Assembly: GCA_009929695.1 (NCBI GenBank)
Contig: RZZW01000002.1
Span: 96,527 to 160,526 of the forward strand
DNA: 64,000 bases
DNA from: Clostridia bacterium
GTDB lineage: Bacteria > Bacillota > Clostridia > Oscillospirales > Ruminococcaceae
Direction: 5' to 3'
The position numbers were made by a program, and so were the translations under genes. This document shows positions 13,882 to 21,786 of this stretch, piece by piece; position 1 is the stretch's first letter; the number at the start of each line of letters is the position of its first letter. The notes below the pieces were generated by a model. The model had not been told where the DNA came from, searched no databases, and worked only from the letters and a program-made list of their open reading frames with translations.

Positions 13882-14232
13882 CTAATTTATCTCAATAACA
13901 GCAGTAGGGTACATCTTGCAGTTTTTGAGAATATTACTGAGAAATTCTATTGTAGTTTCCACAGTACCCCAGCCATTTGACGGCTCAAACTGTCTATACC
14001 TCTGACTGTACCGCATAAGCTCCGTAACACCTGCGTCAAGCACAGGTATCAGTTCCTCACAGCTCTTGCCGTTCCAATCTGACGGGTAAGAGCCGCAAAC
14101 CTCTTTTATCATAGCGGAGGTGTTGCAGGTGTGATTTATCCAGTCATCACCGACATAAACCCACTGTTCCGCACCGTCAAGTTTTGCCTTAAAGCTCACA
14201 TCATAGCTCATTGTGTAGCCTCCTTTATTCAC
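13882..14232 (-). CDS. Hypothetical phage protein
   Basis: Tight overlap with rtcB; SD present. Confidence 0.55.
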   Translation of the reverse strand: MNKGGYTMSYDVSFKAKLDGAEQWVYVGDDWINHTCNTSAMIKEVCGSYPSDWNGKSCEELIPVLDAGVTELMRYSQRYRQFEPSNGWGTVETTIEFLSNILKNCKMYPTAVIEIN

Positions 14233-15391
14233 TTGCTTTGAAGTTATACACGGGCTTAATGATTTTGATAACCTTTACAGTATCGGCTATACGTTCCAGT
14301 ATTTCAGCAGCCGGTTTATAAGCCTGTGGTGCTTCGTCTAAGGTTTCCGAGCAAACAGAAGTAGTAAACACGCCTGTCATTGTTTCCCGGTATTCCTCTA
14401 ACGGTATTTCTGCCTTTGCTTTTGTGCGGCTCATAAGCCGTCCTGCACCGTGAGGCGCCGAGCAGTTCCAGTCCTCATTACCGAGGCCCATACCGAGAAT
14501 ACAACCGTCACGCATATTCATAGGAATAAGCACGGTGCGTCCTGCCTGTGCAGCAATAGCGCCCTTGCGTACCATACCTTCATCATCAATGTAGTTATGT
14601 ACTGTGTGGAAGCTGTCTATTGCTTTCCAGCCCATTTGTTTACAAACAACCGCCGCTATGCGTTCACGGTTATATCTTGCAAATATCTGACACTGCTTCA
14701 TATCGTAAAGGTAATTTTCTCTGTCTGCACCCTCTACATAGCAGAGATCACGGGGGATTTTAGGTGTTTCCTTTTTAAGAGCTTTCAGAGCCTCAGATAT
14801 TTCACGTTCACGCCCTTCTGCCTTTAATTGAGCTATGAGCGCCGCCCGTTTCTCTTTCGGGGAGCTGAGCGTTTCAATGGCGGTGTTCTGGTATATTTCG
14901 GCAACCTGCTTTCCGAGGTTACGGCTGCCGGTGTGGATAATGAGATATTTTCCACCGTCTGAATCTTCGTCAACCTCTATGAAATGATTACCACCGCCAA
15001 GCGTACCAAGAGAGGCGTGTAAGTGTTCAACGTTTCTCAGTTTCTTGTAGCACACCAAGCTGTCAATCAGCGAGTAGTGACCGTATTCACTGTGAACGTT
15101 CATGCCTGAGGGTACATTATCACGGATAACGCTATCGAGTTTTTCATAGTCAATGGGGATATTACCGAGGCTCACGGTGAACATACCGCAACCAATATCC
15201 ACACCGACAATGTTCGGGATAACCTTATCACCGAGATTTGCGGTAAAACCGATTACACACCCAGCGCCAGCGTGAACATCCGGCATGATCCGTACCTTGC
15301 AATTTTCAAAAGGCTTTTGAGCAAGCAAAAGGTCAATCTGTGCCTGAGCTTCCGGCTCAATGGTCTTTGCAAATATTTTCAAGTCTTTCAT
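14225..15391 (-). CDS. rtcB: RtcB-family RNA ligase (phage-encoded)
   Basis: GVDIGCGM, GTLGGGNHFIEV, HTGSRNLGKQVAEIYQ, SFHTVHNYID, APHGAGRLMSR motifs. Confidence 0.93.
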   Translation of the reverse strand: MKDLKIFAKTIEPEAQAQIDLLLAQKPFENCKVRIMPDVHAGAGCVIGFTANLGDKVIPNIVGVDIGCGMFTVSLGNIPIDYEKLDSVIRDNVPSGMNVHSEYGHYSLIDSLVCYKKLRNVEHLHASLGTLGGGNHFIEVDEDSDGGKYLIIHTGSRNLGKQVAEIYQNTAIETLSSPKEKRAALIAQLKAEGREREISEALKALKKETPKIPRDLCYVEGADRENYLYDMKQCQIFARYNRERIAAVVCKQMGWKAIDSFHTVHNYIDDEGMVRKGAIAAQAGRTVLIPMNMRDGCILGMGLGNEDWNCSAPHGAGRLMSRTKAKAEIPLEEYRETMTGVFTTSVCSETLDEAPQAYKPAAEILERIADTVKVIKIIKPVYNFKASE

Positions 15392-15576: not shown

Positions 15577-16180
15577 TTAATTTATCCACTTTATCACCGT
15601 GTCACCGGTGTAGCCCTTTTGCCACACGTACCACGCATAGCAAACGGCGGTTGATTTTGCGTACTGCTCAAAGTCACCATTCATAGCACACCTGAGGCGG
15701 CTTGAGCTTACATAGACGGTTTTAGGTGGGTATCGGTTGAACAGCTCACGCCGAGCCTTGCCCTCCAAAAACTGTATTTTAAGAAACATTGCAACCTTGC
15801 AACCGTCAGCGGATATTTCAAGTGCGTGTTCCACAAACTCCTGAGCTTTTGAATACGGGGGATTTGTGATTATATCGAAGCCCGGAACGGGGGGGCAGCG
15901 GTTGTCAAGAAGTCCTGCTGATACCCGTAGCCACGATCCACAAGGTCTGAAGCGTAAACGCTATATCCGGCTTTTTCAAATTCTTTTGCAAGGTGTCCTT
16001 CGCCGCAAGCGCATTCCCATATCAGAGGTGAAAAGGTTTCAACCTCCATAAGTAACTGAGCTGCTTTCGGCTCTGTTGCGTAATAGTCATTTGTTTCACG
16101 CTCATTGTGGGCGTAGTTTCGTGCGCCTAAAACTGCGTGTGTTGAACGGCTGTTGCCCGTCCAGTCTTTATTATTCAAGG
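15577..16180 (-). pseudogene. NPPY-type adenine methyltransferase split by a G7 homopolymer (off-frame state)
   Basis: 5' part (TTG after AAAAGGAGG: LNNKDWTGNSRSTH...QQDFLTTAAP) in one frame, 3' part (PVPGFDIITNPPYSKAQEFVEHALEI...) in another; break at 15889-15895. Confidence 0.75.
15889..15895. repeat. Homopolymer G7 (C7 on coding strand)
   Basis: aacgggggggcagc at the methyltransferase frame break. Confidence 0.9.
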
Positions 16181-16183
16181 GTT

Positions 16184-17062
16184 TCAGCCTCCTTTTAAGT
16201 ATGATGATTTTATTACACCACTTTCGGGCAACGGGGGGGGGCAAACCTCACGAAGTTCAGTATAAAAGGCTTTATTTTTAATAGATTTTCCAGCCGCTAT
16301 ACATTCATCTTCAAAAGCAAACCGCTTTTCCAAGTCCTCAACGGTACTGTAACCCTTAAATACGCGCCAAGTTTTCTTATCCGTTTCTCTAAGTTCTTCC
16401 CAGAGGTCGGGGTAATACTTTCTTAGGTTTCTAAGGTCATCAAGCGATTGCAAAGGACAACACCAGCAGCTTACCCGGTTGAACACTTTATACAGTCCGT
16501 CCCAGTCGTAGCCGAGCTTATAACAGTAAGCCAAACAGTCAGCCTCAGTCCAGTTCCAATAAACAAGTGGGTAAATGTGATCTTTTTGCTGATTACTTTT
16601 GCGTTCTAACCTGTATTGTTCATCAGCGGCAATGCCTATCAAATGAACAACATCATATTCGGCTTCAAGTGCTTTGAAGTGCCTGTTTATCACATCTTGC
16701 TTTAACTTACTGGTACACCACCGAGAACGGCTACCAGCCCAGCCATAGCCCACACGCTCAACATCTTTATATAGGTGCTTCTTTGTCCGGGTATCAAAAC
16801 GGTGTTCAAGCAAATAATAATCAAAGGATTTTTCACTTTGAACACGGGTGAATTTCACACCAGCAGATTTAACGAGCTTTTCAATCTTAGCTATGTGCGT
16901 TACCATTGAGGGAAATTCTTTCCATGTATCACAGTAAAGCACTTCGTCTAAGGGGTACGCTATGTGATTACAGATATGTAGTTTTAGCCATTCAAGCGTT
17001 AAAGCGGTGCTGTCTTTGCCTCCTGAAAAGCTGATTACATAGTATTTTTTCTTTTCATTCAA
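16184..17062 (-). CDS. Phosphoadenosine-phosphosulfate reductase-family PP-loop protein
   Basis: SFSGGKDSTALTLEWL PP-loop; SCWCCPLQSLDDLRNLRK. Confidence 0.88.
   Translation of the reverse strand: MNEKKKYYVISFSGGKDSTALTLEWLKLHICNHIAYPLDEVLYCDTWKEFPSMVTHIAKIEKLVKSAGVKFTRVQSEKSFDYYLLEHRFDTRTKKHLYKDVERVGYGWAGSRSRWCTSKLKQDVINRHFKALEAEYDVVHLIGIAADEQYRLERKSNQQKDHIYPLVYWNWTEADCLAYCYKLGYDWDGLYKVFNRVSCWCCPLQSLDDLRNLRKYYPDLWEELRETDKKTWRVFKGYSTVEDLEKRFAFEDECIAAGKSIKNKAFYTELREVCPPPLPESGVIKSSYLKGG
16233..16241. repeat. Homopolymer G9 near the 3' end of the PP-loop gene
   Basis: caacgggggggggcaaac. Confidence 0.9.
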
Positions 17063-17783
17063 GCAAACAGCCTCCTAACTCTGACAGCCTCTCAGCCGCC
17101 ACATTAAAGTATTTTTCTTCCTGCTCAAAGCCGATACACACCCTGCCGGTGTTTACTGCGGCTATAAGCGTTGAGCCGCTGCCGAAGCAGTTATCAAGAA
17201 CGGTGTCACCCTCATTTGTATAAGTCCGTATGAGGTATTCAAGCAAGGCAACGGGTTTTTGTGTCGGGTGATAGGACTGAGGGTGTTCCTTCGGAATATC
17301 AATGATAGACAGAGGGTATTTCTCATTCGTTACCACCACCGGCGTTGACTTAAACTCCCCATAACAGCCGTTGCGTCCCTGTTTCTGTGTAGCGTTTCCT
17401 GCACCGCCTCTGGTGTGGCAGGTATCGCCAACGGTAAACTGAGGGTTGTAGGTGGGTTGCTTATCATAGAAAACGCATATATCCTCACTTATCCGTAAGG
17501 GCTGTTTCTTTGCATTTAAGAAGCCGGTAGGTCTGTTTCCCTTTTTCCATATCAGATTGTACTTCCACATTTTTCTGTTACTCTGCATAAGGTCTGAGGT
17601 AAACATACCGCTTGCAAACAGGACAATAGCACCGTTATCTTTTATCACCCGTTTGTAGTGCCGCCACAATTCCGGGAACGGAATAACGCTGTCCCATTTT
17701 GCATTTGGGTTTTTGCTATTCAGTACCCCGTATGGTAAATCACACAGAATGAGATCAACCGAGTTATCGGGTATTAAGTGCAT
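17055..17783 (-). CDS. Beta-class (DLPY) DNA N4/N6-methyltransferase, N-terminus possibly truncated
   Basis: DLILCDLPYGV; YHPTQKPVALLEYLIRTYTNEGDTVLDNCFGSGSTLIAA. Confidence 0.88.
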   Translation of the reverse strand: MHLIPDNSVDLILCDLPYGVLNSKNPNAKWDSVIPFPELWRHYKRVIKDNGAIVLFASGMFTSDLMQSNRKMWKYNLIWKKGNRPTGFLNAKKQPLRISEDICVFYDKQPTYNPQFTVGDTCHTRGGAGNATQKQGRNGCYGEFKSTPVVVTNEKYPLSIIDIPKEHPQSYHPTQKPVALLEYLIRTYTNEGDTVLDNCFGSGSTLIAAVNTGRVCIGFEQEEKYFNVAAERLSELGGCLLE

Positions 17784-17788
17784 ACCCG

Positions 17789-17956
17789 TTAGGCAGTCAC
17801 CATTAAAGGCGTTGTACTTAACGGGGGGGTGAAGGTCGATACCGGGCAGTCTGAATGACCGCTATGTATAAATACTTGCTTTCGGCTATCAGGCTGCCGA
17901 GTATCGAAGTAAGGCATTATTGTTATTTCCTGTCCGCATAAAGGACAAAGGCTCAT
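17789..17956 (-). CDS. Short zinc-knuckle ORF directly upstream of the DLPY methyltransferase
   Basis: MSLCPLCGQEITIMPYFDTRQPDSRKQVFIHSGHSDCPVSTFTPPLSTTPLMVTA; ATGA overlap with DUF6378 gene. Confidence 0.55.
   Translation of the reverse strand: MSLCPLCGQEITIMPYFDTRQPDSRKQVFIHSGHSDCPVSTFTPPLSTTPLMVTA
17823..17829. repeat. Homopolymer G7 between zinc-knuckle ORF and methyltransferase frame
   Basis: aacgggggggtgaagg. Confidence 0.9.
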
Positions 17957-18808: not shown

Positions 18809-18961
18809 TCATAAAATTGTTAAAGCCACCAGCAACAGGATAAAAAGCCCTGCCGCCGAGCTTGCAAAAAAGATACCTGTCTTTATTGTCTTTGCACTCA
18901 TAGCCATAAGGCAGAAGAAAACGGCAAAGACGAGCAATGTGATTTGTGTAGCAAGTGTCAT
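18809..18961 (-). CDS. Small membrane protein
   Basis: MTLATQITLLVFAVFFCLMAMSAKTIKTGIFFASSAAGLFILLLVALTIL, SD present. Confidence 0.55.
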   Translation of the reverse strand: MTLATQITLLVFAVFFCLMAMSAKTIKTGIFFASSAAGLFILLLVALTIL

Positions 18962-20596
18962 AATGTTTCCTCCTGAGGAAAGCGTACTTTTGTAACGGCT
19001 ATCGGAAATTCCTCTATTTCCGAAGCCCACAGGCAAGAGCCTTTTCCGTTCAGCATTTCCCATATCAAAGGAAAGCCGCCGATACCGTCAAACAGGCTTG
19101 CCATAGTGTTATCAGAGCCACAGCAGAGCGTCAGCTTTGAAAGAACATAAAACCACGGCGGTATTGCAATACTGTTTCCGAGTGCCTTATAACGGGCGCT
19201 ATCAGTAATGGGCTTGCTTTTCAGCTTTCTCCCGTATTTATCGGTTTTCTCATAGTCACCTATATCAGTCCACCCGTCCGGGAAGCCCTGCAACCGTTCA
19301 CATTCAAGAGGTGTCAAACGGCGTACTATCATTTTGTCAAGCACATCAACCTGTCTTGAACGCATTAAAGTAGGTGCGGAGCTTTCAGAAGCACTTATAT
19401 CCGCACTCTCTGACGCTTGCCCGTGAAAAGCACATACAGCAGAGGGACCTTTTGCAACAAGCGTTGAGTTGATACCGTCCTCACTGATCCTGAAGTTATA
19501 TTGTGCGTTTTCACCCTGATTAAATGCCGCACGATCCAAAGCAATAACACCGTTTCTGCCTGAGGACATACCACAATTTACGCCCAGCGTTGCCGCCTTA
19601 TCGCCTGTAAGAGCCGCATTGTAACCGTCAACGCCCTGTGCTTTTTCTTTCGGTGTTACAGCAACGGCGGTATAATCAGTAACACGGTTTTGGTGATCTC
19701 CCGTCATAGTGGGTGCAATCTTACCGTCACCGTTTCCCCGTGCGTCATACACAGCAGAAGAATCCTCAGACAAAACCAAACGCCCTTTAACATCAGCCTC
19801 ATGCTTCGGTGCGCCTGCACCGCTTCTCAGGGTGCTTGCAACATCAGCTAAAGGTAACTGTTTTGCGGAAACAGCCGGACGGTCAACGGTGTTGAGCGTG
19901 TAGCTCACGCCCTCCGTCCAGCCTCTACCGTTACAACCTGCGGTGTCGGCACGGTCAATGCAGTTGCCCTGTATGCAGTATGTAGGGGCTACTCTTGTGC
20001 CTGCCGTTCCAGAACGGCTCTCAGCAGTTCGGGTAGCTCTTTCCCACGGCGTTCTGCCCTGCGGATAATACCCTGACACGCCTTCGCGCTCAAAGAGTAT
20101 TTCGGGTGCGGTAAGTCCTCCAAAATCTGCGACAAGTGCGATTCTACGCCTACGCTGGGGGACTCCCCAAAACTGAGCGTCGAGTACACGCCACGCAACG
20201 CTCCAATCCCCCCCCCATTCCAACGAGGCAGCCGCTTGTGGGCCAGCCGTCATTAGGCATAGGAACAACGGGGGCTTCTTTGCAGACAACCCGGACTGTT
20301 TCTTGCAAGACTGCTCCGAAGTCTGCTCCTTTGTTTGAGCTAAAAGCTCCGGGTACATTTTCCCAAACCATAAAGCGAGGTCTGATATTTGTACCTGTTC
20401 TACCTCTGTGTTCATCTGCTTTCCTCATTTCTTTAATTACTCTGAGCTGTTCCATAAACAGCCCTGAGCGTTCCCCGGCAAGCCCAGCACGTTTTCCGGC
20501 AACGCTTAAATCCTGACACGGGCTACCTCCGATTATGACATTGACGGGGGTAGCCTCAGCACCATTGATTTTTGTTATATCGCCTAAGTGTTTCAT
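18958..20596 (-). pseudogene. Circularly permuted C5-cytosine DNA methyltransferase, split by a 9-nt G/C homopolymer
   Basis: 5' part (20150-20596) GGSPCQDLSVAG and WENVPGAF; 3' part (18958-~20208) WGVPQRRRRIALVADF, LTPLECERLQGFPDGWTD, YKALGNSIAIPP, then MASLFDGIGGFP at the C-terminus. Confidence 0.85.
20208..20216. repeat. Homopolymer C9 (G9 on coding strand) at the frame break
   Basis: ccaatcccccccccattcc. Confidence 0.9.
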
Positions 20597-21159: not shown

Positions 21160-21786
21160 TTAAATCGAGAAGCCGAACGCCACGCCATTAGCGTTGTAGG
21201 CGGTGTCGTAGTTGTAGGCGCTACCGTTGGAGTAGACATAACAGAAATAGGACGAGGACTGAGAGTAGGGGGAACGAAGCCACCACCACCAAGTACCGTG
21301 ATCCGCACACTCTTTAACACGGGATTTTTCGGTGTGGAAAATATCAAGCTGTGTGTCCTCCGGCTCATATTCGGAATAGTTGCCCTTGCCGAAAACCTGT
21401 GTTCTGGAAAGCAGGAAAAGTTTGTCCTCACACTCAACACGCTCACCGTCCAAAACCTGAACAACCTTAGTAGGCTTAATGAGTGCCTGCAATTCGTCAG
21501 GCAGCAGATTAAAGACGGTTTTGTTGAGGTGCTTACGCATATCACTTTCAGCCCAGCCGCCCTTGTTTGTGGAACGCTTATTCATAGCGTGTTCATCTTC
21601 AAGACAGTCCTCAAGGACAAAGAACAGATTTCCGTTCATATCGTGTGTAGCTCTTGCCGCCACTTCCTCACCCGTTTTCAGATTGAAATGAATGAGGTCA
21701 CGGCTTTTAATTTCACCGGCTTCAACAGCCGTTTTCAGGTCAGCCCACTCACCGGGCGTAACCGTTTCTTTGATAAAGTTAATCAT
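21160..21786 (-). CDS. DUF6273-like protein with C-type-lectin/DGR-type variable C-terminus
   Basis: TWWWWLRSPYSQSSSYFCYVYSNGSAYNYDTAYNANGVAFGFSI. Confidence 0.75.
   Translation of the reverse strand: MINFIKETVTPGEWADLKTAVEAGEIKSRDLIHFNLKTGEEVAARATHDMNGNLFFVLEDCLEDEHAMNKRSTNKGGWAESDMRKHLNKTVFNLLPDELQALIKPTKVVQVLDGERVECEDKLFLLSRTQVFGKGNYSEYEPEDTQLDIFHTEKSRVKECADHGTWWWWLRSPYSQSSSYFCYVYSNGSAYNYDTAYNANGVAFGFSI

Follow-up and report, generated by a model that had tools for sequence, protein, structure and literature searches.

Natural circularly permuted C5-cytosine (m5C) methyltransferases include M.BssHII, M.Alw26I, M2.Eco31I, M.Esp3I and M2.BsaI together with 22 more from REBASE, all of which are broken in the variable region, with motifs IX–X placed ahead of I–VIII (Type H/J) (PMC5944983, 2018). 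The same study included laboratory-made permutants of M.MpeI and M.SssI and found an engineered Type B form to be highly active, while reporting that this form is absent from natural enzymes and suggesting weaker SAM binding as a possible reason (PMC5944983). The phage-borne m5C enzyme described here resembles the M.BssHII group in that a single chain carries motif X ahead of motif I. That group has its break in the variable region (IX-X-I-...-VIII) and belongs to bacterial restriction-modification, whereas the present enzyme is broken between motifs II and III and has no partner nuclease recognised among the scanned neighbours. The II/III permutation site is shared with the engineered Type B form; the latter is a laboratory construct, whereas the family presented here is natural, with a target region and a specificity that may be unrelated. 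The nearest sequence relatives are linear m5C enzymes (L285 from Tissierella, L287 from Lachnoclostridium and that of Streptococcus phage Javan191), in which motifs III–IV and IX–X have the same wording as in the permuted enzyme, but motif I is N-terminal, about 62 residues before motif IV, and poly-G tracts are few or lacking. The open-access papers searched describe neither a natural Type B enzyme nor a phase-variable methyltransferase in phages. Our preferred reading, to which we give a probability of about 0.84, is that the gene encodes an orphan temperate-phage C5-cytosine methyltransferase of Clostridia (mainly Oscillospirales) that is permuted in the Type B manner and is phase-variable.

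The window (the whole 64-kb stretch of DNA that was analysed) is part of a 2.68-Mb genome assembly (contig 28). Translation places the methyltransferase gene on the minus strand at 18958–20596, in agreement with the coordinates and peptides of the original prediction, and splits it over two ORFs, one in frame A (20596–20150; motifs III, IV and VI) and one in frame B (20415–18958; motif VIII, the variable region, IX, X and then I and II), whose junction is a coding-strand G9 tract (20208–20216) that probably serves phase variation. The N-terminal part up to the tract (20217–20596) begins with MKHLGDITKINGAE, carries motifs III (GDIT, 20584–20573), IV (GGSPCQ, 20530–20513) and VI (ENV, 20362–20354), and matches positions 46–129 of the PF00145 profile (E 1.7e-16). 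The C-terminal part (18958–20207) matches profile positions 257–319 and carries motif VIII (QRRRR, 20157–20143) with the variable target region downstream, motif IX (19323–19279), motif X (YKALGNSIAIPP, 19191–19156), motif I (SLFDGIGGF, 19098–19072) and motif II (WASEIEEF, 19029–19006), ending in RFPQEETL and a stop codon. The PF00145 matches in both halves are above the curated cut-off, and the m5C motifs I, IV (PCQ), VI (ENV), VIII (QRxRxR) and X are all present, the order along the gene being III-IV-VI-VIII-(target domain)-IX-X-I-II over two reading frames. Motif X is joined to motif I by an uninterrupted single frame. The gene shares bases with both neighbours: its start codon with the stop codon of the gene upstream (ATGA, 20593–20596), its stop codon with the start codon of the gene that follows. 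Motif I is absent upstream of the gene and a PF00145 profile search found no second m5C enzyme in the genome, so that the predicted lack of an upstream motif I ORF holds. Loss of an upstream motif I through an assembly break was rejected because both ends of the gene overlap its neighbours.

The break point was located with an intact relative, L014, in a PDB sequence search: residues 413–453 align to M.HhaI 15–53, and residues 4–58 align to M.HhaI 58–112, which puts the break between motifs II and III. Judged from its sequence, the window enzyme is thus a Type B permutant with its N-terminus between motifs II and III, and the original prediction is amended in two respects. The C-terminal segment, described there as motifs I to III, comprises motifs I and II (19006–19098, minus strand, fused in-frame behind X), motif III being the GDIT near the N-terminus; and the comparison with M.BssHII stands as regards natural permuted m5C enzymes, but the type differs, the N-terminus lying at motif III and not in the variable region between VIII and IX as in natural Type H/J enzymes. 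The linear sister L285 reads ...VTKVRFPNM|IHLGDITKLKG... at the corresponding place and linear relatives follow the pattern ...RFPxM|KHLGDI..., such that the start codon of the permuted protein corresponds to an internal Met of the linear protein. The catalytic motifs are invariant or almost so across 25 intact relatives. Structure prediction, which had been suggested alongside the original prediction, gave a weak AlphaFold model (pLDDT 58, pTM 0.60) with partial matches to the m5C enzymes M.HhaI, M.HaeIII and M.MpeI, and we regard it as too uncertain to carry weight.

With the C-terminal part as query, 2.9 million viral contigs yielded 439 relatives, of which 80 were retained, and in all 80 retained loci motif X runs into motif I in one frame. 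The X–I join is not due to chance, because a single frame is kept throughout these loci. A second search used motifs I–II alone as the query, which favours neither motif order, and among its best 80 loci 76 were permuted, 4 were unclassifiable and none was linear (L157 and L158, scripted as 'linear', were counted as permuted after inspection). The motif-order search thus bears out the claimed permutation, and the permuted arrangement is common to nearly all close relatives in viral contigs. Within the stretch fetched for each of 113 permuted loci, exactly one motif-I sequence was present in 110 and none in 3. These data also bear on the possibility that the C-terminal motif I–II segment is a separate small gene and the enzyme is split, not permuted. 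Split m5C enzymes do exist (M.AquI, M.EcoHK31I) and an ATG stands just before SLFDGIGGF, but this Met is not conserved (TLGS or TLAS in relatives), no ribosome-binding site precedes it, and none of the retained loci has a stop codon or a change of frame on the way from X to I, which makes a split enzyme extremely improbable and agrees with the original prediction that the segment is not a distinct gene.

For the phylogeny, permuted rows were rotated back into linear order, giving a core alignment of 291 columns. A branch with support of 100/98.5 sets 43 permuted rows apart in the maximum-likelihood tree, the neighbours of this clade being linear enzymes of Lachnospiraceae, Tissierella and others (Clostridia), and the simplest reading of the tree is that the permuted form has one origin. 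Genomes with the permuted form are mainly Clostridia (Acutalibacter sp., Intestinibacillus massiliensis, Gemmiger gallinarum), alongside a small number of metagenome bins that carry other labels. A joined X–I match was present in 8 of 299 genomes of the window's own family (covering almost all of the query in 7, in two pieces in 1) and in none of the 4 other genomes of its genus. PHROGs family 16427, whose match in the window gene spans the X–I junction, is named just 'DNA methyltransferase', and permuted sequences are already in databases, apparently unrecognised as permuted. One permuted methyltransferase (L263, 2555–5485) carries an apparent intein of about 335 residues, with Hint and LAGLIDADG-like domains, directly after the catalytic ENV of motif VI.

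The G9 tract had been treated in the original prediction as something to correct, whereas comparison of relatives suggests that it is functional. Across 52 permuted representatives, 56 coding-strand runs of at least seven G were counted, whereas codon shuffling gave 11.3 and 51 linear phage control genes had none, the control sets differing somewhat in host and in GC content (0.50 vs 0.54). The codon shuffles and the linear controls rule out Gly codon usage as the source of the tracts. Runs of C, A and T were not enriched in the 52 permuted representatives. Run lengths in the permuted genes were bimodal (40 G5, 4 G6, then 53 from G7 to G13), while no run beyond G6 occurred in the linear genes of this comparison. 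Single genes hold up to six tracts, which sit at various points between motifs VI and VIII and in the target region; those of L013 (G10), L021 (G9) and L074 (G8) are at the same place as the G9 of the window. Exclusivity of the tracts to permuted genes was ruled out, as a few linear sisters (3 tracts in 27 kb) and other phage methyltransferases carry them, and switching is therefore not tied to the permutation. The frame was broken in about half of the scorable relatives (32/68), and after dereplication the break was found in 20 of 26 genes with a coding-strand run of at least seven G compared with 3 of 24 without (Fisher 4.7e-6).

Near-identical phages provide length alleles of the tract, with the proviso that near-identical viral contigs may stem from related samples and that lengths were taken from assemblies, in which homopolymer counts can be wrong. 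L065 and L066 are the same over 9122 bases apart from the tract, which is G9 in L065 (intact) and G8 in L066 (broken), and L031 and L033, compared over 3075 bases, have G7 (broken) versus G8 (intact) as their sole difference; a pattern scan found no third series of tract alleles. In the isolated Faecalibacterium phages Toutatis and Lelie the tracts are G9 and G14, respectively, and the permuted-gene tract is the only G or C run of at least seven in 50 kb of each. The tract is the site that changes fastest. As in a contingency locus, the repeat lies in the coding region and its length sets the frame, and both in-frame and out-of-frame alleles exist in the two pairs of relatives, suggesting that the G tract is probably a switch and the gene phase-variable. 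Recoding of the target domain in alternative frames by paired tract slips lacked general support in nine genes, in which usually a single frame is open between tracts, although two tracts do differ between L074 and L076, in opposite directions.

The frame breaks could also reflect pseudogenisation or homopolymer assembly errors in a genuinely permuted gene that is not switched, a reading compatible with the draft or metagenome origin of the assemblies and with several genes that have many tracts and would rarely be in frame. Third-position changes, however, exceed first- and second-position changes in both halves of broken copies (L004 and L005 are so alike that their few changes allow no verdict), and broken copies therefore appear still to evolve like coding DNA and not to be visibly decaying. 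Decay or miscounting likewise fits poorly with near-identical genomes that differ over kilobases at the tract alone, and with tracts whose enrichment is confined to one strand and which do not occur in linear controls. Furthermore, a surface-polysaccharide locus of the same host genome (L397, contig 37, 28000–47500) contains four G8–G9 tracts in or beside glycosyltransferase- and acyltransferase-like genes, three of them in-frame inside genes, which suggests that the assembly copes with such runs. We therefore consider decay or assembly error improbable as an explanation of the breaks. L397 is itself a likely phase-variable surface locus, and host and phage appear to have this kind of switch in common.

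Programmed ribosomal frameshifting at the G tract, which would yield full-length enzyme at a fixed ratio with the DNA unchanged, is a further alternative, given that the slippery runs are within coding DNA and that frameshifting is common in phage genes (PMC3711429). A programmed site would nevertheless be expected to hold one length at one position, whereas the tract lengths of close relatives cover all three frame classes and intact genes are common among relatives, whether a tract is present or not, and we regard frameshifting as very unlikely, well behind decay or assembly error.

The left half of the window is a prophage, mostly on the minus strand, and reading of the ORFs indicates head and packaging genes (0.7–6.7 kb), replication genes (up to 26 kb) and, on the plus strand, a recombinase (28.7–30.4 kb). 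The scan of neighbouring genes against Pfam and PHROG matched no endonuclease family, some short neighbours matching no family at all. Two further methyltransferase genes lie nearby on the minus strand. The first encodes an N4/N6 DNA methyltransferase (17055–17956; PF01555, E 9.7e-30), with an upstream CPLCG/HSDCP ORF in another frame (17956–17789), the frames meeting at a C7 tract (17823–17829). The second, an NPPY-motif methyltransferase (15577–16244), is split into two ORFs at a C7 tract (15889–15895), and its C-terminal part matches the DNA methyltransferase family PHROG 799 (E 6.4e-25). Between them, a PAPS-reductase-like gene (16184–17062, minus strand; PF01507, PHROG 424) has a C9 tract near its 3' end (16233–16241). 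These three tracts and the G9 tract are the only G or C runs of at least seven in the window; all four are in or beside DNA-modification genes within 4.3 kb, a clustering with a chance of about 0.001 under uniform tract placement, and the reading frame of each of the three methyltransferases is interrupted at one of them. Tracts of other phages that lie beyond the permuted gene are mostly in D12, MT-A70 and N4/N6 methyltransferase genes (L010, L040, L051/L052, L065, L071 and L072); the nearly identical L051 and L052 have G11 and G9, respectively, near the end of an N4/N6 methyltransferase gene.

With regard to origin, an internal Met of a linear ancestor would have become the start codon of the permuted gene, and motifs I–II would have been fused behind X, probably through a tandem duplication whose two ends were then trimmed. 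A permuted chain can form a functional enzyme, as the engineered Type B enzymes do, and once folded the protein would be expected to be an ordinary class I m5C methyltransferase. Restriction is blocked when phage DNA is methylated, and the most likely role of the enzyme is to shield phage DNA from host restriction. Its expression would most likely be switched at random by slippage in G tracts of the coding strand, those between motifs VI and VIII and, for some relatives, those of the target region too, which moves the downstream half in and out of frame. The window copy would represent the out-of-frame state, in which the enzyme is off, intact copies being present in relatives, and the two neighbouring methyltransferases would likewise be out of frame at their C7 tracts. 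The presumed benefit is bet-hedging against restriction. An extension of this proposal, which we favour by a narrow degree, is that whole phage DNA-modification cassettes are contingency loci, in which several methyltransferase classes (m5C, MT-A70, D12, N4/N6 and NPPY) each carry a G/C tract. If true, a phage population would be a mix of methylation states, part of which always escapes the restriction of the next host.

Phase-variable bacterial methyltransferases (phasevarions), such as the Campylobacter type IIG enzymes (PMC4889913) and Helicobacter ModH (PMC5700931), similarly have a simple sequence repeat as the switch of a DNA methyltransferase, but are bacterial enzymes of other classes, whereas the gene described here encodes a phage m5C enzyme. 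Campylobacter phages also have genes with hypermutable G tracts; in the system cited in PMC11868660 (Sorensen 2021), polyG phase variation switches the receptor-binding protein, whereas in the Clostridia phages the tracts affect DNA-modification genes. The poly-G tracts suggest that phages bet-hedge DNA methylation as bacteria do with phasevarions, which, if true, would bear on the part that restriction plays in setting phage host range in the gut. The permuted genes form a large natural clade with the Type B form, including intact members, although this form was reported missing from nature in 2018 (PMC5944983). The existence of a natural Type B clade with intact, expressible members therefore makes the SAM-binding explanation directly testable.

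Permuted, tract-broken genes would also account for split annotations, such as gp14 and gp15 of Toutatis, annotated as two 'DNA methyltransferases'. In Faecalibacterium phage FP01 (PMC13432834), orf57 is a 225-aa 'DNA cytosine methyltransferase' by the DUF2815 and DNA polymerase genes, which also adjoin the methyltransferase in the window, and its short length suggests that it may be another frame-broken permuted gene. The prophage of the window further encodes an RtcB-like RNA ligase (14225–15391) and a DUF6273 protein (21160–21786); DUF6273 proteins are annotated in Toutatis too, one of them beside diversity-generating retroelement genes.
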